Shown here in pieces: positions 4,898 to 63,012 of a DNA stretch of 64,000 nucleotides. Position 1 is the stretch's first letter, and each line of letters starts with the position of its first letter. Source of the DNA: an uncultured Bacteroidales bacterium. GTDB lineage: Bacteria; Bacteroidota; Bacteroidia; Bacteroidales; WCHB1-69. The position numbers were made by a program, and so were the translations under genes. The notes under the pieces are model-generated. The model was given only the letters and a program-made list of their open reading frames with translations. It was not told the origin of the DNA and ran no database searches. The stretch lies in NCBI GenBank assembly GCA_905235135.1, contig CAJOKR010000020.1, positions 62,001 through 126,000 of the forward strand, in the 5' to 3' direction.

Positions 4898-4917
4898 CTG
4901 TATAAAGCTTTTTTGTT

Positions 4918-5793
4918 ATGATTAAATCCATGACCGGCTTCGGTCGGACGGTGCTGGAGACCGACGGCAAGTGCATTACCGTGGAAATTCGCACCCTGAA
5001 CAGCAAGCAGTTAGACCTGAATACGCGCATTCCGCTGCTGTTCAAAAATTACGAAAACGACATCCGTTCCATCCTCTCCAAGGAGTTGGAACGTGCCAAG
5101 GCGGATTTCACTATCACGGTTGAAAACCGTTCCGTGAGCAATTCCGTGGCCATCAATACGGACTTGGCAATGTCTTATTATCAGACACTTACGGAGCTGT
5201 CCAAAAAGATGGGCAACCCCGTGGAGAGCGACATTTTCCTGCATGTGCTTCGGATGCCCGACGTGGTTTCCACCCCGCAGGAGGAGGTCAGCGACGAACT
5301 TTGGGAGAAGCTGCGGTCAGCCATCCTTGATGCCTGCCGACAGCTGAACGAGTTCCGCATTTCGGAAGGCAAAGTGCTGGAGAAGGATTTCGTAAAGCGT
5401 ATCACGATGATCCGCGACATGATTGACGAAGTGACCCCATTTGAGGAGCAGCGTATCGTCAAGATTCGTGAGAAATTCGAAACTTCGCTGAAGGAACTGG
5501 CCCCCAAGGTGCAGTACGACCCGAATCGCCTCGAACAGGAGATTTTCTTCTATCTGGAGAAATTGGACGTGACCGAAGAAAAAGTCCGTCTGCGCAAACA
5601 TTGCGACTACTTCATCGAAACCCTTAACGACAGCCAGTCCAACGGCAAAAAACTCGGTTTCATCGTGCAGGAATGCGGCCGCGAAATCAACACCCTCGGC
5701 TCCAAAAGCAACGATTTCGACATCCAGCAGATTGTGGTGCGGATGAAGGACGAGTTGGAGAAATTGAAGGAGCAGCTGGCGAACGTGTTGTAA
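4918..5793 (+). CDS. YicC/YloC family endoribonuclease
   Basis: N-terminus MIKSMTGFGR; C-terminus 'FIVQECGREINTLGSKSNDFDIQQIVVRMKDELEKLKEQLANV' typical of YicC. Confidence 0.93.
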   Translation: MIKSMTGFGRTVLETDGKCITVEIRTLNSKQLDLNTRIPLLFKNYENDIRSILSKELERAKADFTITVENRSVSNSVAINTDLAMSYYQTLTELSKKMGNPVESDIFLHVLRMPDVVSTPQEEVSDELWEKLRSAILDACRQLNEFRISEGKVLEKDFVKRITMIRDMIDEVTPFEEQRIVKIREKFETSLKELAPKVQYDPNRLEQEIFFYLEKLDVTEEKVRLRKHCDYFIETLNDSQSNGKKLGFIVQECGREINTLGSKSNDFDIQQIVVRMKDELEKLKEQLANVL

Positions 5794-5840
5794 AAGGTTT
5801 AAGGTTTAGGGTTTAAGGTTTAAGGTTTAAGGTTTAAGGG
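5794..5840 (+). repeat. Heptamer tandem array (GGTTTAA)n directly after the yicC stop codon
   Basis: ggtttaa/ggtttag units, 7-bp period, read directly. Confidence 0.9.
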
Positions 5841-5902
5841 GTTGTAGGGTTTCGGAATGAATGATATTACATTGTTCATTGTACATTGTAAATTGAATTA
5901 AA

Positions 5903-7207
5903 ATGGGAAACATATTATCATTAATCGGTCGGCCGAATGTGGGAAAATCGACGTTCTTCAACCGCCTGATTCAGGCGCGGGAGGCCATTGTGGATGCTAC
6001 GGCTGGCGTGACGAGAGACCGGCATTACGGCAAGTCCGACTGGAACGGCTACGATTTTTCGGTGATCGACACCGGCGGCTATGTGGTGGGCTCGGATGAC
6101 ATTTTCGAGTCGGAAATCCGTAAGCAGGCGGCGTTGGCTATCGAAGAGTCCGATGTCATCGTGTTCATGGTCGATGGCCGTGAAGGGCTGACCCCTTTGG
6201 ATGAGGAGATTGCCGACATCTTGCGTAAATCGAAAAAGCCGTACTATCTGGCGGTGAACAAGATCGATAGCCCGAGCAATTACTTCGATTACACGGAGTT
6301 TTACGCGTTAGGTATTGGCGAAATCTATCCCATTTCGGCGGTTTCCGGCAGCGGCACGGGCGAGCTTTTGGATGAGGTGGTGAAACATTTCTCTAAAGAC
6401 AAAGACGACCTGCCTGACGACCTGCCGCGTATCGCTATCGTGGGTAAGCCAAATGTGGGTAAGTCTTCGATTATCAACGCTTTCCTTGGTGAAGACCGCC
6501 ATATCGTGACCCCATTAGCAGGTACAACTCGCGACACGATCTTCACCCGCTACAAGAGCTTCGGTTTTGACTTCTACCTTATCGACACCGCTGGATTGCG
6601 CAAAAAGAGCAAGGTGGAGGAGAGTTTGGAGTTCTACTCCGTGATGCGGGCCGTGCGTTCCATTGAGAATTCCGATGTCTGCATCGTGATGGCGGATGCC
6701 TCGCAAGGCTTTGATTCCCAAGATCTCAATATTTTTGGGTTATGCGCCCGGAACCACAAGGGCATTGTGTTAGTGATGAACAAGTGGGATTTGGTGGAGA
6801 AAGACACTCATACCCACAAGAATTTCGAGGATGCGTTGAAAAAACGGATTGCGCCCTTCACCGATGTGCCGATCATTTTCACTTCCGTGACCGAGAAACA
6901 GCGCATTTACAAGGTGCTGGAGACGGCCATTCAGGTGTATCAGAACCGTCAGCGCCGGATTTCCACGTCGGAGCTGAACAATACGCTGCTGCCGATTATT
7001 GAGGAGACGCCCCCTCCGATGAACAAGGACAAGGTCATCCGGATCAAGTATATCACGCAACTGCCGGTTGCTTACCCGACGTTTGCGTTTTTTGCCAACC
7101 TGCCGCAGTATGTGGTCGATTCCTACAAACGCTTCTTGGAGAACCAGATCCGCAAGAACTGGGATTTCTCCGGCGTACCCATCGAGATATATTTTAGGAA
7201 GAAGTAA
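5903..7207 (+). CDS. der: Ribosome biogenesis GTPase Der (EngA), two tandem GTPase domains
   Basis: Two G1 motifs ([24 protein letters not shown]), DTGG/DTAG, NKID/NKWD; KH-like C-terminus. Confidence 0.97.
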
Positions 7208-7284
7208 GTTTAAATCCCAAAGTCTTAAGTCTCAAGTCTTAAGTCTTGATCCTTAAATCTCAAGTGTTAAGTCTTAAGTCAAAG
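7208..7284 (+). repeat. Heptamer tandem array (AAGTCTT)n directly after the der stop codon
   Basis: aagtctt/aagtctc units with 7-bp spacing. Confidence 0.85.
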
Positions 7285-7296
7285 TCATAGAGGTAA

Positions 7297-8604
7297 ATGA
7301 AGAAACTTTTCATAGAAACATACGGTTGTCAGATGAACTTTGCGGACAGCGAGGTGGTGGCTTCCATTTTGAAAGATGACTACACGCTGACCAAAGAGAT
7401 TCAGGAGGCCGATTTAATCCTCATAAACACCTGTTCCATCCGCGATAAGGCCGAACAACGTATCCACAAGCGTTTGCGCGAATTAGAGGCTTATAAGCGC
7501 AAAAAACGGACGATGCAGGTCGGGCTGCTGGGCTGTATGGCGGAAAGGATGAAGGAGGAACTGCTGCAGACGGAGCCGGTGCTGGATTTCATTGCCGGCC
7601 CGGATGCCTATCGCACGCTGCCGCAGCTCATCGAAGAATCGCAACACGGACATACCTCGTTCAACGTATTGCTCTCAAAAGAAGAGACTTACGACAACAT
7701 CATGCCGGTGCGCTACGATGCCAACGGCGTCTCAGCGTATGTTTCCATCATGCGCGGATGCGACAATTTCTGCTCCTACTGCGTGGTGCCCTACACCCGC
7801 GGTCGCGAGCGCAGTCGCAGCCCGAAAACCATCCTCAGCGAGATTGAGGATCTGTTGAAGGATAACTACAAGGAAGTCACGCTGTTGGGACAGAACGTGA
7901 ACTCCTACTACTGGAAAGAGGGAGATGAAGAGGTCTCTTTCGCCAAATTGATGGCGATGGTGGCCGAAATGTCGCCGGAACTGCGCGTGCGGTTCGCCAC
8001 TTCGCACCCCAAGGACCTTTCCGACGAGCTGATTGAGACCATTGCCCGTTACGATAACATCTGCAAATGTATCCATCTGCCGGTGCAGTCGGGCAGCGAT
8101 GAGATGCTCAAAAAGATGCGCCGTGTCTATACCCGTGAGAGCTACTTAGAGCGGGTGCGGAAAATCAAGGAGATGCTGCCGGATTGCGCCATCACCACCG
8201 ACATCATCGTTGGATTCTGTGGCGAAACCCTTGAGAACCATCAAGATACGCTGTCGATTATGCGCGAGGTCGGATATGAGTATGCCTACATGTTCAAGTA
8301 CTCCGAACGCGGTGGCACGTTAGCCTCCAAGCAGTATCCCGATGACATCCCCGATGAGGAGAAAACCCGCCGTTTGGAGGAGGTTATCGCGCTGCAGGGC
8401 GAACTTTCGATGGCCAGCAACCTCCGCGATGTGGGCAAAACCTTCCGCGTGTTGGTCGAAGGCACCTCCAAGCGCTCCGCCGACCAGCTTTTCGGCCGCA
8501 ACAGCCAAAACAAGGTGATTATTTTCCCGCGCGGAAACCACCAAATTGGCGATTATGTGGATGTCATGGTGACGGAATGCACACCAGCAACGCTGTTGAG
8601 TTAG
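7297..8604 (+). CDS. miaB: tRNA-2-methylthio-N6-dimethylallyladenosine synthase MiaB
   Basis: ETYGCQMNFADSE, radical-SAM CxxxCxxC 'RGCDNFCSYCVVPYTRGRERSR', TRAM-like C-terminus. Confidence 0.97.
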   Translation: MKKLFIETYGCQMNFADSEVVASILKDDYTLTKEIQEADLILINTCSIRDKAEQRIHKRLRELEAYKRKKRTMQVGLLGCMAERMKEELLQTEPVLDFIAGPDAYRTLPQLIEESQHGHTSFNVLLSKEETYDNIMPVRYDANGVSAYVSIMRGCDNFCSYCVVPYTRGRERSRSPKTILSEIEDLLKDNYKEVTLLGQNVNSYYWKEGDEEVSFAKLMAMVAEMSPELRVRFATSHPKDLSDELIETIARYDNICKCIHLPVQSGSDEMLKKMRRVYTRESYLERVRKIKEMLPDCAITTDIIVGFCGETLENHQDTLSIMREVGYEYAYMFKYSERGGTLASKQYPDDIPDEEKTRRLEEVIALQGELSMASNLRDVGKTFRVLVEGTSKRSADQLFGRNSQNKVIIFPRGNHQIGDYVDVMVTECTPATLLS

Positions 8605-8712
8605 TTTAGGGTTTAAGGTTTAAGGTTTAAGGTTTAAGGTTTAAGGTTTAAGGTTTAAGGTTTAGGGTTTAAGGTTTAAGGTTTAAGGTTTAGGGTTTAG
8701 GGTTTAGAGTTA
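8602..8712 (+). repeat. Heptamer tandem array (GGTTTAA/GGTTTAG)n overlapping the miaB stop region
   Basis: About 14 heptamer units counted by eye; begins tag-tttaggg-tttaagg. Confidence 0.92.
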
Positions 8713-8727
8713 ATGGCCAAAAGCTAA

Positions 8728-9765
8728 ATGAACGATATTCGAAATATAACATTTGACCAGTTGGTGTCGTTTTTGCGCGAAAATGGCGAAAAGCCGTTTC
8801 GGGCGAAGCAGATTTGGACGTGGTTATGGAAGCGGGGTGCGGGCTCGTTTGACGAGATGACCGACCTCTCCGTGGCGCTGCGGACGAAATTGCAGGAGCA
8901 TTTCACGTTTCACCGGGCGGAAATTGCCGAAGAGGTGCATAGTACCGACAAATCAGCCAAGTTTTTGTTAGAGTTCCACGATGGGAAGATGGTCGAAGGT
9001 GTGCTCATTCCGAGCAAGGATCGCGTTACGGCATGTCTTTCCACTCAAATCGGGTGTCCGCTGCATTGCGCGTTTTGCGCCACCGGCACCATGGGCTTTA
9101 TCCGCAACCTGCACTACAGCGAGGTCATTGACGAATACGTATTGCTCAACAATCGGGCGCAAGAGATTTACAACCAGCATATTACCAACATCGTCTTCAT
9201 GGGCATGGGCGAACCCTTGCTCAACTTCGACAACATGATGACCGCCATCGACATCCTCACCGGCAAGGACTATTTCGGGTTGTCGCCCACGCGAATCACC
9301 CTTTCCACAGCGGGCATCATCAAGGGGATCAAGGCATTGGCGGACAGAGGTTTCCGTTGCGGTTTGGCCATTTCACTGCATAGTGCTGACCCGACCGTCC
9401 GTGGGCAGATTATGCCGGTGACCGAAGGCAATCCGCTGCACGATTTGCAGGCCGCGTTGGTCTATTACCACCAGAAGACCGGCGAGCGCATCACCATCGA
9501 ATATCTGCTGTTATCCAAGGTCAACGATTCGGAAAAGGCGGCTGAGCAGTTGGCCCGTTTCTGCCGACCTTTCCCCGTGAAAATCAACATTATAGAGTAC
9601 AATTCCACCCCCGACTCGCTGTTCCACAAATCCGATCCAGTGCGCAAGCAAGGCTTCATCTCCGTGCTGGAACGTTGCAACATGGTCGTGAACATCCGCC
9701 AGAGCAAAGGGCAGGATATTGCTGCGGCGTGCGGGCAGTTGGTACGGAAAATGGTTAACGGTTAG
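8728..9765 (+). CDS. rlmN: 23S rRNA/tRNA adenine-2 methyltransferase RlmN
   Basis: 'CLSTQIGCPLHCAFCATGTMGFIRNL', 'GMGEPLLNFDNM', 'VRQSKGQDIAAACGQL'. Confidence 0.97.
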   Translation: MNDIRNITFDQLVSFLRENGEKPFRAKQIWTWLWKRGAGSFDEMTDLSVALRTKLQEHFTFHRAEIAEEVHSTDKSAKFLLEFHDGKMVEGVLIPSKDRVTACLSTQIGCPLHCAFCATGTMGFIRNLHYSEVIDEYVLLNNRAQEIYNQHITNIVFMGMGEPLLNFDNMMTAIDILTGKDYFGLSPTRITLSTAGIIKGIKALADRGFRCGLAISLHSADPTVRGQIMPVTEGNPLHDLQAALVYYHQKTGERITIEYLLLSKVNDSEKAAEQLARFCRPFPVKINIIEYNSTPDSLFHKSDPVRKQGFISVLERCNMVVNIRQSKGQDIAAACGQLVRKMVNG

Positions 9766-9782
9766 GCGGTTACACGATTAGT

Positions 9783-9830
9783 GTGTAGAGACGCAAAATT
9801 TTGCAGAGCCGTCATAATATGGCGTCTCTA
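9783..9830. repeat. GTAGAGACGC palindromic repeat (copy 1)
   Basis: tgtagagacgcaaaattttgcagagccgtcataatatggcgtctctacg. Confidence 0.8.
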
Positions 9831-9832
9831 CG

Positions 9833-11224
9833 TCATTGCTCCCGATGCCGTAACTCTATAACAATTTGCGGGTACTTCTCCTGCAAATGTTTAGCAGTAC
9901 GTTCAGCAAAATAGACCGAGCGGTGCTGGGCGCCCGTGCAGCCGAAATTGACCGTTAGGTGGGTGAACTTGCGCTCTAAGTAGTTGTCCACCGACATGTC
10001 CACTAACGCACATACGTGATTCACAAAGGTTTCCACCTCCTGATATTGCTCCAAATACTCCTTTACGCAGTCGTCTTTGCCAGTGAAGGTGGCATACCGC
10101 TTCTCGCGACCTGGGTTGGGCAGGGCGCGACAGTCGAAGATGAAACCGCCGCCGTTCCCGGAAGGATCCTCCGGAACCCCTTTCTTGAACGAGAAACTCT
10201 GCACCGTGACCGTCAGCACATCCGGATTTAGCTTGGCGGGCTCCACATAGCTGTCCACCACGGTCTGTAGCACGTGCCGCAGATCGGGCAGGTTGGCCGG
10301 CAGCGCCTTCTGCTGCAGCAGATAGCGCATGTTACGGATGGCATACGGCACGCTCTGGAGGAAGTGCGTTTTCCGTTCGAAATAGCCCCGATAACCGTAT
10401 GCGCCCATCGCCTGCATAATGCGGATGAGCGAAAAAGCGTTGAAGTAGGCCTTGAACTGCTTACGATCCACCGAAATGTACTGGGAAAGGTTATCCAGAT
10501 AGCATTCCAGCAGTTCCTCGCGAATTTCGGGGGAAAGGTCGGCCTTCGCATCATACAGCAGCGAGGCAATATCGTACTGCAGCGCCCCTTTTCTGCCGCC
10601 CTGATAATCGATGAACCAGACATCATCCTGATAAACCATGATGTTCCGCGACTGGAAATCCCGATAGAGGAAAAAGTCGTCCTCAACACTGAGCAAATAG
10701 TCCATAAACTGCTGATAATCATCCTCCAAAAGCTGCTCATTGAAGGGGATGTACGCCATCTTGAGGTAGTAGTATTTGAAATAGTTGAGGTCCCACTGCA
10801 TCGACTGCCGGTCAAAGGCAGCGCGAGGGTAGGCCACCGACATGTCCAGCCCCTCTTTTGCGGTCATCTGGAACTTGGGCAGAGCTGCCACCACTTTCCG
10901 ATAATCGTCCATAACCTCTTGGAAATCACCACCATTCTTCCTCACTTCACACAGCTTGTCATACAAGGTTTGCGTCCCGAGGTCATTCAACAGATAGTGT
11001 TTTTCGTCCTCGTGAACGGCAATCAAAGTAGGGACGTTCAGCCCTTTCCCAGCGAAGAAGCGGGTGTATTCGAAGAAGGCACGATTTTCTGTAACATCTT
11101 CATTATAAGCACCTATCAGCGTGCTATTGTCGCCAAAGGTGAAGCGGTAGTAGCGTCGATGCGAGCCAGATTGCGCCAAAGGGACGCAGGAGGTGGGATT
11201 TTGGGCGGCGTGCGCAGTGGCCAT
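9833..11224 (-). CDS. APH/AmgK-like phosphotransferase fused to a RapZ C-terminal domain; ORF extends to 11329 through a repeat element, so the start is uncertain
   Basis: Kinase motifs 'SGSHRRYYRF', 'LYRDFQSRNIMV', 'FIDYQGGRKG'; C-terminal 'GCTGAQHRSVYFAERTAKHLQ...IVIELRHRE' as in RapZ; no N-terminal RapZ P-loop. Confidence 0.88.
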   Translation of the reverse strand: MATAHAAQNPTSCVPLAQSGSHRRYYRFTFGDNSTLIGAYNEDVTENRAFFEYTRFFAGKGLNVPTLIAVHEDEKHYLLNDLGTQTLYDKLCEVRKNGGDFQEVMDDYRKVVAALPKFQMTAKEGLDMSVAYPRAAFDRQSMQWDLNYFKYYYLKMAYIPFNEQLLEDDYQQFMDYLLSVEDDFFLYRDFQSRNIMVYQDDVWFIDYQGGRKGALQYDIASLLYDAKADLSPEIREELLECYLDNLSQYISVDRKQFKAYFNAFSLIRIMQAMGAYGYRGYFERKTHFLQSVPYAIRNMRYLLQQKALPANLPDLRHVLQTVVDSYVEPAKLNPDVLTVTVQSFSFKKGVPEDPSGNGGGFIFDCRALPNPGREKRYATFTGKDDCVKEYLEQYQEVETFVNHVCALVDMSVDNYLERKFTHLTVNFGCTGAQHRSVYFAERTAKHLQEKYPQIVIELRHREQ

Positions 11225-11246
11225 TGCGGTTAACGTCTCTGTTGGG

Positions 11247-11323
11247 CCCCACACTGCGCTTCGCTTGTGTGGGGTTATTTGCGCTTCGCGCGTGTTGCCT
11301 CTTCGAGGCTGCTCAAGGAAATT
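11247..11323 (-). repeat. Composite multi-hairpin element (family B, copy 1), overlapping the 5' extension of the phosphotransferase-RapZC ORF
   Basis: CCCCACAC..GTGTGGGG + GCGCTTCGCGC + GCCTCTTCGAGGC + tgctcaaggaa. Confidence 0.85.
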
Positions 11324-11373
11324 TTTCATATATATGGTTCTTCGACCGTTATCTAATTATCTGATACTTAAAT

Positions 11374-11433
11374 CCTAAACCCTAAACCTTAAACCTTAAA
11401 CCTTAAACCTTAAACCTTAAACCTTAAACCTTA
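11374..11433 (-). repeat. Heptamer tandem array (coding orientation GGTTTAA) abutting the rodA stop codon
   Basis: aaaccttaaaccttaaacctt... directly downstream of rodA on its own strand. Confidence 0.9.
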
Positions 11434-12687
11434 ATTATCATTCAATTTGATGAAACAGAACAGCATGATGGTGAAGGACCAGAGGGAGGAACCGCCGTAG
11501 CTGATGAAGGGTAAGGGGATGCCGATGATGGGCAGGAGGCCGGTGGTCATGCCGATGTTGATGAAAAAGTGGAAGGCGAGGATGCCTGCTATGCCGTACC
11601 CGTAGTAGCGTACGAACGGATTTCGCTGTTTCTCAGAGAGTTTCAGGATGCGGAAGATGAGGGCACCGAAAAGTCCGAAGACTACCAAAGTGCCGAAGAA
11701 ACCCCATTCCTCGCCGATGGCACAGAAGATGAAGTCGGTGCTTTGCTCGGGTACGAAGTTGAGCTTCGTCTGCGTGCCTTTCAGGTAGCCCTTGCCGAAC
11801 AAGCCGCCCGAGCCGATGGCGATTTTCGACTGGTTGAGGTTGAAGTCGGCACCCAACGGGTCGGAAGTTTTGCCCATGATGGTGTCAATACGCTGTTTTT
11901 GGTGCGGTTCGAGGCCGTGCTCATATAGGAAGTTGACGGAGAAAACGAACGCGACACAGGCCAAATAAACGATGACGTTGCGGCGGTATTTCTTCTTCTG
12001 GGTGCGGTTGGCAATCATGAAGGCGATGAAAACCGCCGTGATGATGGCGATGGAGTAGGTTTCGTTGAATTTCAGCGTGATGAAGGCGATAATGCCCGCA
12101 ATGATACCGAGTACTAAAAATTCCGCACTCAACCCCTCGCGGTAGAAGAGGATGATGAAGGAGAAGAAGACCAGTGCGGAACCCGCGTCGTGCTGCAATA
12201 GCGCCACAATGATGGGGATGAAGACCAACCCGAATTGCGCAAGCCACACGTAGCGGCGTTGGTTGGCGGTCTTGCCCTCCTGCATGAACTTGGCCAAAGC
12301 CAAGGCCGTGGCCACCTTCATAAACTCCGTGGGCTGTATGCTGAAACTACCGATTTTGATCCACGACTTTGCACCGTTGATTTCGGCCCCGATAAAGATT
12401 ACGAGTACCATCAAAAATAGGCAGAAGAGGTAGAAAAAGTAGGGATAATGCTGTATTATTCCACTGTCTATCAGTAATATAACAATAGCTAAAAGGATAG
12501 AGGTCCCAATCCAGATCATCTGTTTGCTGTAGGGTTGCCCGAAGTCGAAAATCGGGGTGGAACCGTCGGGGATGTAGCAGGTGGAATAGATGGTGATCCA
12601 GCCGATGATGACCAGCGCGAGGTAGTAGCAGATCAGCCGGGCGTCAAAACCCTTGGACATCTTATTGTATGGTTCTAATTTCGGCAT
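11431..12687 (-). CDS. rodA: Rod shape-determining protein RodA (SEDS)
   Basis: Multi-TM; 'FVPEQSTDFIFCAIGEEWGFFG', 'GLLPIIGIPLPFISYGGSSL'. Confidence 0.95.
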   Translation of the reverse strand: MPKLEPYNKMSKGFDARLICYYLALVIIGWITIYSTCYIPDGSTPIFDFGQPYSKQMIWIGTSILLAIVILLIDSGIIQHYPYFFYLFCLFLMVLVIFIGAEINGAKSWIKIGSFSIQPTEFMKVATALALAKFMQEGKTANQRRYVWLAQFGLVFIPIIVALLQHDAGSALVFFSFIILFYREGLSAEFLVLGIIAGIIAFITLKFNETYSIAIITAVFIAFMIANRTQKKKYRRNVIVYLACVAFVFSVNFLYEHGLEPHQKQRIDTIMGKTSDPLGADFNLNQSKIAIGSGGLFGKGYLKGTQTKLNFVPEQSTDFIFCAIGEEWGFFGTLVVFGLFGALIFRILKLSEKQRNPFVRYYGYGIAGILAFHFFINIGMTTGLLPIIGIPLPFISYGGSSLWSFTIMLFCFIKLNDN

Positions 12688-12689
12688 GG

Positions 12690-14498
12690 CTACTTGATTT
12701 TCATTTCTTTCATCCGTTGTTCGAGGTCGGTGCGCTCGACTTTGCGATTGAGGTAGTATTCAGCCATCAGGCTGGCGATGGGGCAGGCTACGGTGGCTCC
12801 AAAGCCGCCGTTTTCCACTAAGCAGAAGACGACGATTTGGGGGTCGTTGGCCGGGGCAATGAGGGCAAATACGGAGTGGTCGCGGCCGTGTGGGTTCTGT
12901 GCTGTACCAGTCTTACCGGCCACTTCAATGCCGGGAATCTGCGCCCCGCGTCCCGTACCAGCCGTCACCACCTGTTTCATGCCCTGCAGCACCGTCTCAA
13001 AGTGGCGCGGCTCGATTTTGGAGTATATCTTATCGCTAAACTGCGTGTTAAGGCTGTCTCTATTCCCGATGGCGCGCACCACATGCGGACGGATGTAGTA
13101 ACCCTTGTTGGCGATGACGGCCAGCATGTTGGCCATCTGCAGCGGGGTCACCGCCGCCTCGCCCTGCCCGATGCCCATTGAGACTACCGTGTTGCCGTTC
13201 CAGCTGTTGTTGTATTTCTTGTCGAAATATTCCGCTGTCGGGATGCGCCCTTTCAGCTCGTAAGGCAGGTCGGTGTCGAACACCTGCAGAAAGCCCATCG
13301 AGCTCATGTAATCGAGCCAGGCGGTGTAAGCTTCGTCGATGTTCTTGTATTTCACGCGGTTGGAGAGGATGTTGTAGTAAGCGCGGCAGAAGAAAGTGTT
13401 GCAAGAACGTTGGATGGCGCTGTAGATATTGAGACCGCCGCAGTTATGGCAGTGTACAACGTGATTGCCGAGATGGTAACCGCCGCCGGAGCAGGAATAG
13501 ACCGTCGAAGGGGTGATGATATGGTCTTGCAGCGCGATAAGCCCGTTGGCCAATTTGAAGGTGGAACCAGGGGGATAGGCAGCCTGCAACGCTCTGTTAA
13601 ACAGCGGTTTCTCGGGATCTGTCACTAACTTGCCATAGTTTTTCGGGCGGGCGGTACCGACTAAAAGGTTCGGGTCGTAGTTGGGGCTGGAGACCAGGCA
13701 GAGAATCTCGCCGGTTTTGGGTTCGATAGCCACGATGGCGCCCCGTTTGCCAGCCATCAGCTCCTCGCCATAGCGTTGCAGCTGCATGTCGAGGGTGCTC
13801 CAGATGGAGGTTCCAGGCACGGCTACGATATCGTCCTCGCCGTTGTTGTAAGAGCCCATTTCACGGTTATGAACGTCCACCAGCACCTTCCGTTTGCCTT
13901 TCACGCCACGCAAAATCGGCTCATACGCTTTCTCAATGCCGCTCTTGCCGATATAGTCGCCCATCCGGTAGTAGCTGTCGTTTTCTACATCTTGCTCATC
14001 CACCTCACTGACATAGCCGAGAATGTGAGCTGCGATGGGCTGCGGATAGGAGCGCAAAGTACGGCTTTGCACGAAAAATCCCGGAAATTCGGACATCTTT
14101 TCCTGTAAATAGCCGTAGTCTTCCTTGGAAATCTGCTGTTTGAACAACGAAGGCACGCTGCCGGAATATTTCTTCGCTTTTTCAATTTTCTTCCGCACAT
14201 CTTCGATATCCAAGTCCAGTACCCGGCACAGTTCCGACGTGTCAAAAGGTCGTAACTCCTTGGGTACCACCATCAAATCGTAGGCAGCATCGTTATACAC
14301 TAACAGCGAATCGTTACGGTCGTAGATGAAACCGCGGGCGGGGTGGATGGTAATCTCACGGATGGCGTTTTCGTCGGCTTTGGTCTTGTACGACGTGTTC
14401 AGCACCTGCAAACGGAACAAATGCACCGTGTAGGCCGCCAGCAAAATGCCGAGGGCTGCCACAATGATGTAGTAACGTTTGCTGTTGTCTTGTGCCAT
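12690..14498 (-). CDS. mrdA: Penicillin-binding protein 2
   Basis: PBP dimerisation domain; 'YPPGSTFKLANG' (SxxK), 'SCNTFF', 'VAGKTGTAQNPHG'; followed by rodA. Confidence 0.95.
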   Translation of the reverse strand: MAQDNSKRYYIIVAALGILLAAYTVHLFRLQVLNTSYKTKADENAIREITIHPARGFIYDRNDSLLVYNDAAYDLMVVPKELRPFDTSELCRVLDLDIEDVRKKIEKAKKYSGSVPSLFKQQISKEDYGYLQEKMSEFPGFFVQSRTLRSYPQPIAAHILGYVSEVDEQDVENDSYYRMGDYIGKSGIEKAYEPILRGVKGKRKVLVDVHNREMGSYNNGEDDIVAVPGTSIWSTLDMQLQRYGEELMAGKRGAIVAIEPKTGEILCLVSSPNYDPNLLVGTARPKNYGKLVTDPEKPLFNRALQAAYPPGSTFKLANGLIALQDHIITPSTVYSCSGGGYHLGNHVVHCHNCGGLNIYSAIQRSCNTFFCRAYYNILSNRVKYKNIDEAYTAWLDYMSSMGFLQVFDTDLPYELKGRIPTAEYFDKKYNNSWNGNTVVSMGIGQGEAAVTPLQMANMLAVIANKGYYIRPHVVRAIGNRDSLNTQFSDKIYSKIEPRHFETVLQGMKQVVTAGTGRGAQIPGIEVAGKTGTAQNPHGRDHSVFALIAPANDPQIVVFCLVENGGFGATVACPIASLMAEYYLNRKVERTDLEQRMKEMKIK

Positions 14499-15484
14499 TA
14501 TTTGTCGCGGCTTTGCAGACGGTGGACGAGGGAGAGCACGAAGGCTTTCTTTTCCTTTTCGGTATGGATGCGGTTGATGTCGTCAATGCATTTTTCCGTA
14601 TAGCGGGCAATTTCCTTTTCCGTGGCCTCTTTTGCGTGTACGGCATCGAAAATGGACTTCACCGCGAGGAATTTCGCTTTCTCGTCCGTAGCGGGTGTGG
14701 TGAAGAGTCTGTGCAGCTCCTGTTTTTGCGATTCGTCGGCCAGTTCGAGGGCTTTCAGCAGAAGGAAAGTCTTCTTGTTGTCCTTGATGTCGCCACCCAC
14801 AGCCTTGCCGAAAACCTCTTCTTCGGCATAAACATCGAGCAGATCATCGGCAATCTGGAAAGCGATACCGAGATGGATACCGAGATCGTAAAGGGCCTGC
14901 AGACTCTCCTCATCGGCACCGGCGAAGCGACCCCCAGCCTTCAGACAGCCCGCGAACATGACGGAGGTTTTCAGCCGAATCATGTTGAGATACTCGTCGA
15001 GGGAAACTTCGTCCATAGTCTCGAAGTCGAGGTCATATTGCTGACCCTCACACACTTCCAGCGCCGTTCGACCAAAAATATCGATGAGGTCGAGGATTGT
15101 TTTCGGGTCGCATTGCAGTTTCAGAAGCTGTTGCATGGCGATTACTGCGAGGGCATCTCCGGCGAGGATGGCGATATTGCCGTTCCATTTCTTATAGACG
15201 GTCGGTTGCCCACGGCGCACATCAGCCTTGTCCATGATATCGTCGTGGATAAGAGTGAAGTTATGCAGCATCTCAAAGGCGGCCGCGATATGCTTGACCT
15301 GTTCCGGGTCGCCATTGAACATCTCAGCGGCAATATACACCAACTGCGGGCGCAATCGCTTACCCGATTGCATTAAGATGTAACTAATTGGATTATAGAG
15401 ATTTTCGGGTCTCTTATCTTGCAGGATTTTCTGAAATAGTTGTTCGATGTTATTCACGACTTTGCTGGTTTTTAGAACCTGCAA
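14498..15484 (-). CDS. Polyprenyl synthetase family protein
   Basis: First Asp-rich motif 'LIHDDIMDKADVRRGQPT', second 'IADDLLD'. Confidence 0.93.
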   Translation of the reverse strand: MQVLKTSKVVNNIEQLFQKILQDKRPENLYNPISYILMQSGKRLRPQLVYIAAEMFNGDPEQVKHIAAAFEMLHNFTLIHDDIMDKADVRRGQPTVYKKWNGNIAILAGDALAVIAMQQLLKLQCDPKTILDLIDIFGRTALEVCEGQQYDLDFETMDEVSLDEYLNMIRLKTSVMFAGCLKAGGRFAGADEESLQALYDLGIHLGIAFQIADDLLDVYAEEEVFGKAVGGDIKDNKKTFLLLKALELADESQKQELHRLFTTPATDEKAKFLAVKSIFDAVHAKEATEKEIARYTEKCIDDINRIHTEKEKKAFVLSLVHRLQSRDK

Positions 15485-15489
15485 AGATA
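15482..15489 (-). promoter_or_regulatory. Bacteroidota -7 box (TATCTTTG on minus strand)
   Basis: caaagata next to the start of the polyprenyl synthetase ORF; close to or overlapping the annotated start, so the start may be further in. Confidence 0.5.
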
Positions 15490-15516
15490 CAATTTTTTAG
15501 GCAACAGCGGTAGGGT

Positions 15517-15586
15517 GAAGTAAAGACTTAAGACTTAGGACTTAAGACTTAGGTTACGTCTCAAGTCTCAAATCTCAAGTCTTACG
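15517..15586 (-). repeat. Heptamer array with inverted halves (AAGACTT | AAGTCTY) abutting the 5-FCL stop codon
   Basis: aagactt-aagactt-aggactt-aagactt-aggttacg-tctcaag-tctcaaa-tctcaag-tctta. Confidence 0.85.
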
Positions 15587-16105
15587 TTAAACGGTTAGGA
15601 TTTCGTCGATGGGGCGGTCGTGGGGTTCGGAAGGAGGGACCAGCTGGAAGTCGAAACAGAGACCGAGGGTGGGCGTTTGCGGGTGCTGAGCTAAGAAACG
15701 GTCGTAATAGCCGCGACCACGTCCCAAACGGTGTCCTTCGCTGTCGAAAGCCATACCAGGCACCACAATGAGGTCGAAAGCGCCGGTATAGGGATTGTTT
15801 TGCGGTTCGGGGATGTGGAAGTCTCCCTCCGCAAAGGGCGTATTATCAGCCAGTTCCACCGGGATGATGTCATCACCGACCACGGTGGGCAGGATGATGG
15901 TCTTCCGATGGCGCCATTCCTCAATGAACGACAGTGTTTGCACTTCGTCAGGTAGGGAGGCATAGAGCATCACCCTTTCGGCAGCGAGAAAGCGCGGATG
16001 GGAAGCCAGCTTTTGCAGCACCGCCTCCGACTGCTTTTGCAGCTCTTCCGGGGTATGCTGTTTCTTGGCGATGCGGATTTGTTGGCGGAGGTCTTTTTTG
16101 TTCAT
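15587..16105 (-). CDS. 5-formyltetrahydrofolate cyclo-ligase
   Basis: 'MNKKDLRQQIRIAKK' start; 'DLIVVPGMAFDSEGHRLGRGRGYYDRFLA' signature. The ORF-track start at 16204 lies in repeats. Confidence 0.93.
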   Translation of the reverse strand: MNKKDLRQQIRIAKKQHTPEELQKQSEAVLQKLASHPRFLAAERVMLYASLPDEVQTLSFIEEWRHRKTIILPTVVGDDIIPVELADNTPFAEGDFHIPEPQNNPYTGAFDLIVVPGMAFDSEGHRLGRGRGYYDRFLAQHPQTPTLGLCFDFQLVPPSEPHDRPIDEILTV

Positions 16106-16120
16106 GTCTTTTTTGCTTGT

Positions 16121-16336
16121 CCCCACACTGCGCTTCGCTTGTGTGGGGTTATTAGCACTTCGTGCGCCCCACACTGCGCTTCGCTTGTGTGGGGTTATTA
16201 GCACTTCGTGCGCCCCACACTGCGGCTTACGCCTTGTGTGGGGTTATTAGCACTTCGTGCGCCCCACACTGCGCTTCGCTTGTGTGGGGTTATTAGCACT
16301 TCGTGCGTTTTGCCCCTCCGGGGCTGCTTAAGGAAG
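16121..16336 (-). repeat. Composite hairpin element (family B, copy 2) with a four-unit tandem array of about 46-48 bp
   Basis: Four consecutive CCCCACAC...GTGTGGGGTTATTAGCACTTCGTGCG units, then GCCCCTCCGGGGC and tgcttaaggaagt. Confidence 0.93.
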
Positions 16337-16341
16337 TATTT

Positions 16342-16732
16342 TTAAGTATTCTTTTTTTCTTGTTTCAGGAGGAAGATTTCGAAGATGGCGTAGAGGAAAT
16401 AGATGACCAAGGAAGGCGATGGCGAAGCGGAGGGCGTCTTCGCGGTTGAAGAACATGTACAGGAGCAGGAACATCAGGCAGGAAAGGAGTTTTACGGTGC
16501 GGGAGAGCATGTAGGAGGTGACGAATTTTTTGCCGTCCTGACCGTCGTCGCTGCGGAGGACGATGTACATGGTGAAGAGGGTCATCACAAAGAAGAAGAG
16601 CACGATGAAGGGCAGCGCGGGGGTGGCGAGCTGAGGCCAGATCCATTGGAACAGCAGTGCCAGCGCGGCGATGATGACCGAAAACACGATGATTCGGAAC
16701 GAGAACTTCTTAATCGGTACCTTTTTGCTCAT
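16342..16732 (-). CDS. Small membrane protein (AtpI-like position upstream of the expected ATP synthase genes), C-terminus frameshifted near 16405-16415
   Basis: TM-rich; shifting by one base near the end restores 'FAIAFLVIYFLYAIFEIFLLKQEKKNT*' in place of 'FLGHLFPLRHLRNLPPETRKKEYLKILP'. Confidence 0.75.
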
Positions 16733-42826: not shown

Positions 42827-42846
42827 ACGCGCCAACGGCACGTCTT

Positions 42847-42941
42847 ACCCATACTCTACCCATACTGCAGGCATACTGCAGGCATAGTGCAGGCATACTG
42901 TAACCATACCCTCGGGTATGCATATACTATGCCTGCCCTAT
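42847..42941. repeat. 11-bp period array with an inverted right half, between convergent genes
   Basis: acccatactct-acccatactgc-aggcatactgc-aggcatagtgc-aggcatactgt ... gggtatgcatatactatgcctgc. Confidence 0.85.
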
Positions 42942-43662: not shown

Positions 43663-43678
43663 TGTTTGTTCTGGACTA

Positions 43679-43768
43679 CCCCACATTACGCTCCTTCGTC
43701 GCTTATATGGGGTTAATTGCACTTCGTGCGTCTTGCCTCTTCGAGGCTGCTTAAGGAAGTTGTTTCAT
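43679..43768 (-). repeat. Composite multi-hairpin element (family B, copy 3) upstream of ispD
   Basis: ccccacattacgctccttcgtcgcttatatggggttaattGCACttcGTGCgtcttGCCTCttcGAGGCtgcttaaggaagttgtttcat. Confidence 0.88.
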
Positions 43769-43839
43769 ATTACTACCCCGCCCTTCGGGCACCCCTTCTA
43801 CAATAGAAGGGGAATTGGAGCCGCTCGTTCCTAATTCTC

Positions 43840-43885
43840 TGTTGCCTGTTGCCTGTTGCCTGTTGCCTAATGCCTGTTGCCTAAA
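43840..43885 (-). repeat. Heptamer tandem array (TGTTGCC/TAATGCC) abutting the YitT stop codon
   Basis: tgttgcc x4, taatgcc, tgttgcc; 7-bp period. Confidence 0.9.
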
Positions 43886-44862: not shown

Positions 44863-44901
44863 TTTGGCTGTTGGCTGTTAGCTATTAGCTGTTGGCTTTT
44901 C
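44863..44901. repeat. Heptamer tandem array (TTGGCTG/TTAGCTG)
   Basis: ttggctg-ttggctg-ttagcta-ttagctg-ttggctt. Confidence 0.85.
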
Positions 44902-50331: not shown

Positions 50332-50359
50332 TAATGCCTACTCCCTAATGCCTAATGCC
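50332..50359 (-). repeat. Heptamer tandem array (coding orientation GGCATTA) abutting the cdaA stop codon
   Basis: ctaatgc-ctactcc-ctaatgc-ctaatgc-cttactcc. Confidence 0.85.
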
Positions 50360-51154
50360 TTACTCCTTCGTCAGCATCTCCTCAAGTGCCTGACGGAGCG
50401 TGGAGGAGGTATAGTCGCGGGTGAGTTGGCCGTCGCGGCAGATGGAGATATTGCCGGTCTGCTCGGAGACGACCACGGCGATGGCATCGGTAAATTCGGT
50501 GGCACCAAGGGCGGATCGGTGGCGCAAACCAACCTCCTGCGGCAAGTCGCGGTTTTTCGACACGGGCAGGATGCAACGTGCGGCAGCAATCCGATGGTCC
50601 TTGATAATGACTGCGCCATCGTGTAACGGACTGTTTTTGAAGAAGATATTCTCCAACAGTTCCGCTGACGGTTTGGCGTCAATCACCTCGCCGGTGTTCA
50701 GAAATTCGTCCAACGGGGTCTTCCGGGCGAAGATAATCAGGGTGCCCGTCATGGTGGCCGACATGTGGCGGCAGGCACTCTTCACAGCCTCAATCTCATC
50801 AATGTAAGCCGAGTTTTTGTTCTGTTTTGAGAACCTGTCGCTGAAAAAGTGCACCACCCGGCCGTCGCCGATGTAGAGCAGGAATTTGCGGATTTCGGGT
50901 TGGAACAGGATGATGACGGCCAGCACACCCACATTCATGATTTCCCCCATCAAGGCGGAAAGCATGGTGAAGTGGAAATAGGAGACCACCTCCCAAATCA
51001 CGAACAGCAGCGCCAGCACCCAGAAAATCTTCACGGCGGCGGTGCCTTTCGTCAGCTTGTAGAGCTCGAAAAGCAGTATCGTCACAATCAGGATGTCAAG
51101 AACATCCACGATGCGGAAGCTGACGAAGTCGAATATGGCGGCCAGGGTCATCAT
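50360..51154 (-). CDS. cdaA: Diadenylate cyclase CdaA
   Basis: Three N-terminal TMs; DAC domain 'SPLHDGAVIIKDHRIAAARCILPVS...LGLRHRSALG'-type motifs ('VGLRHRSALGATEFTDAIAVVVSEQTG'). Confidence 0.95.
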   Translation of the reverse strand: MMTLAAIFDFVSFRIVDVLDILIVTILLFELYKLTKGTAAVKIFWVLALLFVIWEVVSYFHFTMLSALMGEIMNVGVLAVIILFQPEIRKFLLYIGDGRVVHFFSDRFSKQNKNSAYIDEIEAVKSACRHMSATMTGTLIIFARKTPLDEFLNTGEVIDAKPSAELLENIFFKNSPLHDGAVIIKDHRIAAARCILPVSKNRDLPQEVGLRHRSALGATEFTDAIAVVVSEQTGNISICRDGQLTRDYTSSTLRQALEEMLTKE

Positions 51155-52105: not shown

Positions 52106-52144
52106 TAATTTTTTTTGGTTACATGGTTGCATGGTTGTGGTTTG

Positions 52145-52190
52145 TGGAGACGCATGGCCTTGTAGAGACGCACGGCCGTGCGTCTCTACA
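52145..52190. repeat. GTAGAGACGC palindromic repeat (copy 4), perfect palindrome plus partial unit
   Basis: tggagacgcatggcctt gtagagacgcacggccgtgcgtctctac. Confidence 0.92.
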
Positions 52191-53838: not shown

Positions 53839-54327
53839 ATGAAAAAGCAACTTTTCCTTTTGACAGCCCTGTTTATGGGCATTACCATGCTTGGCACGGC
53901 ACAGAGTGCGATTGTGCCCGTGGGTGGAGACGCACAGTCTTCAGCCGGTTCGGTGAGTTACACCGTGGGGCAGATTGCGGTGCAAACGGTGGCCAACAGT
54001 AACGGCATTTATGTGGCCGAGGGCGTGCAACAGCCATACGAGATTCAAGCTGTGGGCGTGGACAACTATCCCCAAATCGTGCTTGACGCCGTGGTCTATC
54101 CCAACCCGACGGAAAACATTGCGCAGCTGAAACTTAACGGTTTCGAGCTTCCGGCCGATGGTCTCCGTGCCACTATTTTCGACGGCAACGGCAAGATGCT
54201 GCAGTCGTTTTCTGTCACTGACGACCTGACTTCCTTCCAAATCGGCCAGTACGCCACCGGAACCTACTATCTTGAGGTGAAAGATGGGAAGCGGGTGTTG
54301 AAGACGTTCAAAATCGTGAGGAAGTAG
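53839..54327 (+). CDS. Small secreted protein with T9SS type A sorting domain
   Basis: Signal peptide, C-terminal 'VVYPNPTENIAQLKLNG...ATIFDGNGKMLQSF...TGTYYLEVKDGKRVLKTFKIVRK'. Confidence 0.9.
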   Translation: MKKQLFLLTALFMGITMLGTAQSAIVPVGGDAQSSAGSVSYTVGQIAVQTVANSNGIYVAEGVQQPYEIQAVGVDNYPQIVLDAVVYPNPTENIAQLKLNGFELPADGLRATIFDGNGKMLQSFSVTDDLTSFQIGQYATGTYYLEVKDGKRVLKTFKIVRK

Positions 54328-54640
54328 TTTAGAGTTTAGAGTTTAAGGTTTAGAGTTTAGAGTTTAAGGTTTAGAGTTTAAGGTTTAGAGTTTAAGGTTT
54401 AGAGTTTAAGGTTTAGAGTTTAAGGTTTAGAGTTTAAGGTTTAGAGTTTAGAGTTTAAGGTTTAGAGTTTAAGGTTTAGAGTTTAAGGTTTAAGGATAAC
54501 GACATATCAATCCCCCTTAACCCTTAAACCCTCAACCTTAACCCTTAAACCCTCAACCTTAAACCCTCAACCTTAACCCTTAACCCTTAAACCTTAAACC
54601 TTAAACCTTAACCCCTCAACCTTAACCCTTAAACCAAAAA
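54325..54640. repeat. Long heptamer array with inverted halves (G-rich AGTTTAAGGTTTAG left, C-rich CCCTTAAACCTTAA right)
   Basis: Left half 54328-54497 in GTTTAAG/GTTTAGA orientation, right half about 54515-54636 in the complementary orientation. Confidence 0.93.
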
Positions 54641-54649
54641 ATAGAGATT

Positions 54650-56690
54650 ATGAAGAAAATATATCTTTTATTTGCCATTATGGTGCTTAGTGTGGTGAGT
54701 TTGTTTGCATAGGCACCGGAAAAGTTCAGCTTTCAGGCGGTGGTTCGCAACGAAAGCAACCAATTGGTCAACAACTCACAGGTGGGTGTGCGCGTGAGCA
54801 TCCTGCAGGGCAGTACCTCTGGAAATGCCCTCTGTGTGGAGACCCATACGGCCACAACCAATGCAAACGGTCTGATGACGGTGCAAATTGGGGGGCGGCA
54901 ACTCGCAAGTGGGCTCTTTCACCAATATCAACTGGGCGAATGGCCCGTGGTTCTTGAAAACGGAGACCGACCCGAACGGCGGTTCTAATTACACCGTAGT
55001 CAGTGTGCAGCAGCTGCTGAGTGTGCCCTACGCCCTTTATGCAAAAGAGGCGGGCAACGGCTTCAGCGGCAATATCATGGACTATCTGACCCCCAACACG
55101 ATACCCTACGTTGTGACGGCGTTGAATCAGGCGGGCGTGGCTACACAGAGCGATATCCCGTCTGTGCCGACAAATGTGAGTGCCTTCAACAATGATGCGG
55201 GCTACATTACGATTTCCGCCGTACCGACGGTGCCCACCCATCTGAGCGCGTATGTCAACGATATGGGCTATATCTCTGGCTATACGGAAACGGACCCGCA
55301 GTTCAATGCCTGGGATAAAAACTACAACGACTTGACAAACAAGCCGACCATCCCGACTGTGCCCACGAATGTGAGTGCCTTCACAAACGATGCGGGCTAC
55401 GTTACCGAGGCCGAAGTGCATGAGGCGGCCAATATCCCGACGAATGTGAGTGCGTTCGTCAACGATGCGGGCTATCTGACCTCTTACACCGAGCAGCAAG
55501 TGTTGAGCATCAGCAATGACACGCTGTTCCTCACGGGCGGCAGTTTCGTGAAGTTGCCTGCCGGCTTTGATGGAAACTATAACTCCTTGACCAACAAGCC
55601 GGAAATCCCGACAGTTCCTGCCAATGTGAGTGCGTTCACGAATGATGCGGGTTATATCACCAGTGCCGCGCTGCCGACGGTGCCCACCAATGTGGGTGCC
55701 TTTTCCAACGATGCACACTATGTGAGCAACACCGGCTGCGACAGCATCCAATTTTGCGACATTCTTGCGCGGTTGAACGCTATGCAGGCTGAGATTGATG
55801 CCCTCAAGGCGATGATGCCTGCTGATACTACCCAGCCTGGTTCGGACACCACGGTGATTCCTGATCCGGTTGACCCGTCAGACACAACAGTGGTGCCCGA
55901 TGCCATTGACCCGATGGACACGCTGTCGTCTTTAGCCTGCCCGGACATGCCCAAGGTGACCGATTTTGACGGCAATGAGTACAATACGGTGAAGATCGGC
56001 AACCAGTGCTGGCTGCGGGAGAACATCCGTTCTACGCACTACTCCAACGGCGTGGCAATTCCGCTGCTCGAAAGCTTGGAAGGTCTGACTGCCCTGCCGG
56101 AAGGACGGCTCTATCCCGACCTCAGTCAGGACAAGGTGAGCAAATATGGCTATCTCTATACTTATACAACGTCCTCCTTCAACCACAATTTAACCACGGT
56201 TGGCCCGATTACGGGTGTCTGTCCCGCCGGTTGGCGTATGCCTACCAGCTCAGATTGGGATTCGCTGTTCAACTACTTGTCGCAATGGGACACGCTGCGT
56301 TGCAACAATGAGGCTTCGCAGGTGGTGAAGGCAATCTTCTCCCGTGTGGATTGGGCGCCGAGCACTACGGAGTGCGCCATTGGTTGGAATGCCGCCAACA
56401 ATAATGCCACCGGATTCTCCATCAAGCCGGCCGGCTATGTGGAGAACGGCCCTTACGGTGTTTATGGCCAGAATGTGGGTCTCGCTTCCGGCACTGCCGC
56501 CTACTTCTATACAAGCTCTGCCACGGTTGCGACCAGTGGCGGCGGCCAACAGATTGTAAGACCCTGGTTGTGTAAAATCAATACCCAGACTGCCGCTAAT
56601 GGGGCTAACTTTATTATGGGCCAGCAGTCCCCGACCCCGGCCCAATTACATATTGGTGCTTCCATACGGTGCGTGAAAGACGAAGAATAA
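54650..56690 (+). pseudogene. FISUMP-domain secreted protein, copy 1; in-frame TAG at 54710-54712 and G6-tract frameshift at 54890-54895
   Basis: MKKIYLLFAIMVLSVVSLFA*APEKFSFQAVVRN...; frame resumes as GGGNSQVGSFTNINWANG...; C-terminal FISUMP domain 'VTDFDGNEYNTVKIGNQCWLRENIRSTHYSNG...GVCPAGWRMPTSSDWDSLFNYL'. Confidence 0.88.
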
Positions 56691-62903: not shown

Positions 62904-62912
62904 AAAAGGAGA

Positions 62913-63012
62913 TGGCAAGGGGTTCGCAGGTACATGGCAAGTATATGGCAAGTCCTAGGCAAGTCAAAGTGCTTGCTTCGACTTGGGTAGTACTTGCCAA
63001 GTACTTGCCAAG
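62913..63012. repeat. 11-bp period array with inverted halves (TGGCAAGTNNA | ACTTGCCAAGT)
   Basis: acatggcaagt-atatggcaagt-cctaggcaagt ... agtacttgcca-agtacttgcca-agg. Confidence 0.85.

Follow-up and report, generated by a model that had tools for sequence, protein, structure and literature searches.

Introduction

Why should tandem repeats with a period of 7 bp begin at, or close to, the stop codons of eight genes in one stretch of a Bacteroidales genome? The question is raised by the window analyzed here, i.e., the whole stretch of 64,000 nucleotides (G000:C20:62001-126000). A preliminary description of it proposed that degenerate heptamer arrays anchored on stop codons could act as a fail-safe for termination or, alternatively, be a neutral product of slippage. 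The host genome (G000; 3.26 Mb in 118 contigs, 88% complete) has rumen and gut Bacteroidales MAGs as its closest named relatives based on miaB; the host is described as a rumen bacterium, and its relatives also possess intergenic heptamer runs. In this genus hundreds of intergenic gaps contain arrays, the units at a given site differ between sister species, and position and orientation obey a clear rule that also applies to published data from two other phyla; together, these features open the origin of the 7-nt step to testing. The arrays also show a route by which non-coding repeats rewrite the C-termini of proteins. Species share the position and the period of the arrays but not the unit, and this favors copying in fixed steps of 7 bases over a stop signal built for the purpose.

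Sequences and Methods

Tracts were detected with Tandem Repeats Finder and a lag-match scan. Genome-wide figures on the arrays rest on sampled stretches of the genome; the period statistics were derived from 453 kb of stretches picked without regard to repeats, and the gene calls for the stop-distance test were made by codon usage. The gene names in the window agree with Pfam, including those of YicC and 5-formyltetrahydrofolate cyclo-ligase (5-FCL).

Heptamer Tracts in the Window

All eight loci named in the preliminary description indeed carry period-7 tracts, and the unit differs by locus (GGTTTAA, AAGTCTT, and GGCAACA/GGCATTA families) while the 7-bp period is common to all. At six of them the array starts no more than about 3 nt from the stop codon. 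On the plus strand, a GGTTTAA-family array (5794–5839) lies directly after the stop of yicC (5791–5793), the 15 units of the GGTTTAA/GGTTTAG array of miaB (8604–8711) start with the last base of the stop TAG (8602–8604) and end 16 nt before the start of rlmN (8728), and the 24 units of a GAGTTTA/GGTTTAA array (54326–54495) begin inside the stop TAG (54325–54327) of a gene with a T9SS sorting tail (53839–54327). On the minus strand, the GGTTTAA array of rodA (11369–11434, in rodA sense) is in register with the stop TAA at 11431–11433 (aatTAAGGTTTAAGG), a GGCAACA/GGCATTA array (43839–43882) lies 3 nt past the stop of yitT, and a weak GGCATTA tract (50337–50360) is in register with the stop of cdaA. 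The AAGTCTT/AAGTCTC-type tracts of 5-FCL (minus strand), a weak one at 15558–15582 and a second one at 15523–15551, follow the stop at 4 nt. The distance of about 2 nt given for all loci does not apply to der, where an AAGTCTT-family array (7220–7280, plus strand) starts 12 nt past the stop (7207) and is not strictly stop-anchored.

The arrays had also been presented as a class anchored on stop codons. Anchoring at stops stands, but start-proximal arrays had been overlooked. These are a CATTGTA-type tract (5870–5895, minus strand) 7 nt before the start of der (5903), a TTGGCTG array (44864–44897, plus strand) 36 nt before the start of yitT, with its C-rich strand in the sense of the gene as predicted by the start-side rule discussed below, and an array of opposite orientation (54514–54635, minus strand; CCTTAAA in plus sense) that ends 14 nt before the next start codon (54650). 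In this last gap (54326–54635) the G-rich-sense array after the stop faces the C-rich-sense array before the next start, resulting in a long inverted repeat with a predicted RNA minimum free energy (MFE) of -110 vs. -60 for shuffles. The open frame that follows (54650–54712) has a signal-peptide-like beginning (MKKIYLLFAIMVLSVVSLFA) and is cut by a TAG at 54710–54712; since its frame goes on downstream of this TAG, a gene for a secreted protein appears to be nonsense-interrupted.

Period and Abundance of the Units

Unit size 7 is in excess over other unit sizes, as is characteristic of bacterial heptameric simple-sequence repeats (SSRs): the 453 kb contained 56 lag-7 tracts vs. at most five at any other lag between 4 and 15, except the multiple 14, and the excess was repeated in four further genomes (G021, G014, G020, and G059). 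The non-coding location of this class is also found here, with 93 of 97 tracts outside called genes. Heptamer arrays are common in the genus (0.04–0.21 per kb) and are also present in at least one other family sampled. That 7-bp repeats are in excess in bacteria has been on record since 2007, to our knowledge without a mechanism; the earlier reports of an excess of unit size 7 reportedly proposed a connection with the stretch of DNA that DNA polymerase holds. The size-7 excess is common to those reports and this study, whereas stop anchoring is absent from what is cited.

The dominant units are GGTTTAA, AAGTCTT, TAGTTAG, and GGTTATT. The pattern GGTTTAAGGTTTAAGG has 1301 matches (≤2 mismatches) in the host genome vs. 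3 for reversed-pattern controls. Its counts range from 0 to 1019 across 36 genomes of the genus; with ≤1 mismatch allowed, 299 other sampled Bacteroidota have 0–30 matches vs. 936 in the host, indicating that the GGTTTAA burst is specific to a few species. Units within the host genome are alike far beyond chance: 13% of array pairs share an identical unit vs. 0.5% for shuffled units and 1% against G021, percentages that are descriptive as the pairs are not independent.

Anchoring at the Stop Codon

The preliminary description suggested comparing the distance of the tracts to the nearest stop codon with chance, and in the host genome and its relatives an enrichment at stops was indeed found. 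Thirty-five of the 84 stop-facing array sides of the host lie ≤3 nt from the stop, while random placement in the gaps predicts 6.4 (sd 2.1), a value that rises to 12.0 or 17.9 if the 30 or 60 nt before starts are forbidden. Start-facing sides are ≤3 nt from the start at chance level (6 of 82). Three other species of the genus, with other units, have 15/36, 13/30, and 9/20 stop-anchored sides vs. 4.0, 3.8, and 1.5 expected.

The stop codon is also frequently part of the repeat. In a set of 1372 genes, an exact copy of the stop triplet is present at +7 in 98, at +14 in 85, and at +21 in 75, whereas lags other than multiples of 7 give about 21–42. It fully matches the phase of the array in 41 of the 110 arrays near a stop vs. 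4.0 at other phases, a count that takes in arrays intruding into the gene and so containing the stop. The sense unit holds a stop in 86 of the 110 anchored arrays; anchored units without one are nonetheless many (e.g., GGTTATT, TGTTGGC, and GCAACAG).

Comparison of Orthologous Genes and Gaps

The age of the stop codon relative to the array was judged from orthologues. Where the array starts at -3 to +3 (30 genes), the position of the stop is kept in 78% of the orthologues vs. 68% for 385 array-free genes; where it starts at -7 to -4 (11 genes) this drops to 48%, and for arrays beginning at least 8 nt inside the gene it is kept in none of six genes. Most anchored arrays thus grew on an ancestral stop, while a minority replaced the stop and a few C-terminal residues. 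The former case is represented by rodA, where the TAA also occurs in relatives without the GGTTTAA array, and the latter by miaB of G014 and G021.

At shared gaps, position and period are common to species while the unit changes. The miaB–rlmN gap, which has GGTTTAA in the host, contains AGTTAGC, TGGTTAG, TAGTAGT, TAATTGA, or TAATGGA arrays in close relatives; other close relatives have 11/10-mers or are array-free, with only AGTTAGCAGTTAAC. Among 607 orthologous gap pairs, both members carry an array in 97, where about 43 would be expected if they were independent (calculated from the margins). In these 97 pairs the unit is identical in 5% and differs by ≤1 mismatch in 21% (2 and 6% in controls); the orthologous pairs are not independent, which makes these percentages descriptive. 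A one-unit difference in length of the miaB array between G010 and G021 is the single clear case of a 7-nt step, differences of whole gaps modulo 7 being noisy.

Strand Polarity

The arrays have a distinct polarity. Of 212 skewed arrays of the genus, 171 lie closer to the gene boundary on the 5′ side of their G-rich strand than to the one on its 3′ side, and the same holds for convergent gaps (22/25), divergent gaps (20/26), and another family (18/20). The G-rich strand is in sense in stop-anchored arrays (66:8) and the C-rich strand in arrays near starts (52:11), whereas unanchored arrays nearer a stop are without bias (18:16; Fisher p about 1e-4 vs. anchored). This G-strand polarity extends to units without GGG. 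Gaps without arrays have no GC skew, and the general base composition of UTRs was rejected on this ground as the cause of the orientation. The letters of the stop codon were likewise rejected as the whole cause of the G skew: they account for much of it in full-register arrays, which have a ratio of 37:23 elsewhere in the unit, but not for the remainder, since anchored arrays not in full register have 67 G vs. 14 C at phases 0–3, outside the stop triplet (calculated).

Origin of the Arrays

The arrays are, in our opinion, probably heptameric SSRs that are born and extended by 7-nt duplication and are kept where they are silent, including across stops. Tandem duplications of 7 nt would arise repeatedly and lengthen by slippage in 7-nt steps, and the arrays may be homogenized within a genome toward few units (here GGTTTAA), either through ectopic copying between arrays or through a shared mutational bias. 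They would survive at harmless sites. Since a duplication at the 3′ end that spans or follows the stop leaves the protein unchanged, the stop would come to lie inside or against the array. Upon deeper intrusion, a unit that holds a stop would usually supply a new one within about 21 nt, the period being coprime to 3, and a few C-terminal residues would be rewritten. Before starts, the strand kept in sense would be the C-rich, G-poor one, owing to selection for an unstructured leader. This part rests on analogy with Flavobacterium, where initiation is limited by the structure of the leader (PMC6847099), a limit that could account for the sense orientation of the G-poor strand; against it, the G deficit of array-free regions upstream of starts is slight at most. 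The neutral alternative of the preliminary description, slippage seeded at the context of the stop, is supported. The period, the anchoring, the stop register, the recurrence at +7, the ancestral stops of orthologues, the turnover of units, and the equal frequency of arrays in gaps without stops speak for this origin. Slippage is seen directly in single pairs at most, the comparison being at the species level, and the silence of insertions alone falls short of the 2–5-fold preference for stops over the rest of the gap (35 vs. 17.9 with 60 nt reserved). The G skew that persists outside the stop triplet in anchored arrays likewise counts against this origin.

Selection for stops in every frame, or for ending transcripts, would turn the arrays into the fail-safe or insulator initially suggested. 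They do abut stops far above chance, GGTTTAA has TAA on both strands, and most anchored arrays hold a stop in the sense unit. However, arrays are equally frequent in divergent gaps, which have no stops (17% vs. 19% in codirectional and 22% in convergent gaps), among anchored units other than those copied from the stop, the share with a stop in sense is at chance level (66 vs. 67% of permuted units), many anchored units have none in sense, and at the same housekeeping genes of close relatives the arrays have turned over or are absent. On the gap-type frequencies and the stop content of permuted units, fail-safe stop selection was rejected as a general cause, and we regard this explanation as quite improbable. 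Terminator-like sites (G+C-rich stem plus T run) do not exceed shuffles either in the part of the window scanned for them (4900–16500; 12 sites vs. 12.6), where none coincides with an array. The stops borne by the arrays are best explained as a by-product, not as a designed termination device. Nor is it probable that G-rich sense RNA or DNA (a hairpin or two-tetrad quadruplex) stabilizes 3′ ends or regulates expression, even though the predicted folding is in part suggestive. Repeats that are G-rich in sense fold and C-rich ones do not (ten GGUUUAA units: about -17 kcal/mol vs. 0 for the complement), the miaB array (-35.9 vs. -18.9, sd 3.5) and likewise the long arrays of the window fall below shuffles, the orientation follows the difference in mean MFE between sense and antisense (-9.5 vs. 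-4.2 after stops, -5.1 vs. -11.3 before starts), and a G4 framing has been proposed for the heptamers of Xanthomonas and Nostoc (PMC4692102). Yet the self-complementarity of stop-anchored units does not exceed that of their letter permutations (mean percentile 0.49–0.54), the yicC and yitT arrays fold no better than shuffles, and many units lack GG, so that quadruplexes are not general. Selection for hairpins or terminators was rejected, as the permutation test was null, terminators were not in excess, and Rfam models gave no match in the window.

The polarity would also follow from a templated or template-switching process of 7 nt that extends a 3′ end outward from gene boundaries and seeds new arrays from old ones by 2–4 nt of microhomology (TAA, TAG). 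The closeness of most arrays to the gene boundary 5′ of their G-rich strand, also in convergent and divergent gaps and in the other family, the dispersal of genome-specific unit families over loci, and the positional rule shared by Xanthomonas and Nostoc (PMC4692102) agree with such directional copying. Nevertheless, it seems unlikely: the enzyme is purely hypothetical, the units of orthologous gaps keep some ancestry (21 vs. 6% with ≤1 mismatch), and the absence of bias in unanchored arrays nearer a stop means that the polarity is divisible into two simpler rules. Also unlikely is a single directional process with a fixed 7-nt step, operating in unrelated phyla, that primes at gene boundaries, mostly at the stop, and copies outward along the G-rich strand; if true, position and period would outlast the sequence itself through one such process. 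An artefact of assembly or gene calling, whereby an open frame running into an array must stop there, is extremely improbable and is already refuted for the bulk of the arrays. Arrays starting at least 8 nt inside a gene do set the stop, and five of the 28 sampled contigs of the host begin inside an array (C8, C10, C12, C38, and C40; L034, L042, L046, L148, and L150), which indicates that arrays break the assembly and that the longest ones are probably under-measured. However, arrays occur in about ten separate genomes, including on a 478-kb contig, and those at -3 to +3 retain the orthologous stop.

Relation to Known Heptameric Repeats

In comparison with the literature, the feature is a Bacteroidota form of the heptameric SSRs known from Xanthomonas, Nostoc, and Beggiatoaceae (PMC4692102, PMC4679880). 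In Xanthomonas and Nostoc, Rehm et al. (2015) described GGGAATC and GGGGA(C/T)T heptamers located ≤50 bp from a stop, which they may overlap, when on the coding strand and ≤50 bp from a start when on the non-coding strand; this positional rule was read through quadruplexes (PMC4692102). Like those, the arrays studied here are intergenic heptamers nearer to the 5′ neighbor of the G-rich strand, with extensive variation in length and sequence between species at shared loci, and the same orientation was found (G-rich strand in sense near stops, 66:8, and in antisense near starts, 52:11). They differ in that there are many unit families per genome, in that the phylum is Bacteroidota, and in that most units are without GGG and are not canonical quadruplex formers; the positional rule is consequently wider than its quadruplex reading. 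The direct repeats of TAACTGA reported by MacGregor (2015) occur in marine Beggiatoaceae and in some cyanobacteria and Bacteroidetes; most are forward-oriented and immediately precede a start codon, and they were read as the site of a translational regulator (PMC4679880). That system shares with ours intergenic arrays of stop-containing heptamers, their record at contig ends, and mixed heptamer arrays in some Bacteroidetes, but it has one unit on the start side, whereas the arrays here have many; TAACTGA was not found among the common unit families here. The earlier remark that a stop-anchored class was not known to have been described in Bacteroidota requires qualification, since heptamers near or overlapping stops were already published for Xanthomonas and Nostoc (PMC4692102) and heptamers in Bacteroidetes by MacGregor (2015; PMC4679880). 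What this analysis adds is the anchoring at the stop at nucleotide level, with its two orthologue-supported modes, the turnover of units at conserved sites, and a polarity rule widened to units lacking GGG; the stop-register and ortholog-stop analyses are new.

Other Repeats

Other repeats were encountered as well. Four tandem copies of a 46-bp unit, with the palindrome CCCCACAC...GTGTGGGG followed by GCACTTCGTGCG, occur at 16121–16307, similar copies near 11246–11300 and 43678–43760, and single copies elsewhere; this unit looks like a dispersed REP-like element. Palindromes of the type GTAGAGACGC...GCGTCTCTAC are dispersed in the intergenic DNA of the genus, at about 9786–9830 and 52142–52177 and in many gaps of relatives. 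Tracts with a period of 11 were found at 42846–42909 and 62906–63012, one of them 20 nt past the stop of an ORF of 3655 aa, and in one miaB–rlmN gap (L153) an 11/10-bp array (CGATGAATGGG) takes the place of the heptamers of relatives; 11 bp may represent a minor second period.
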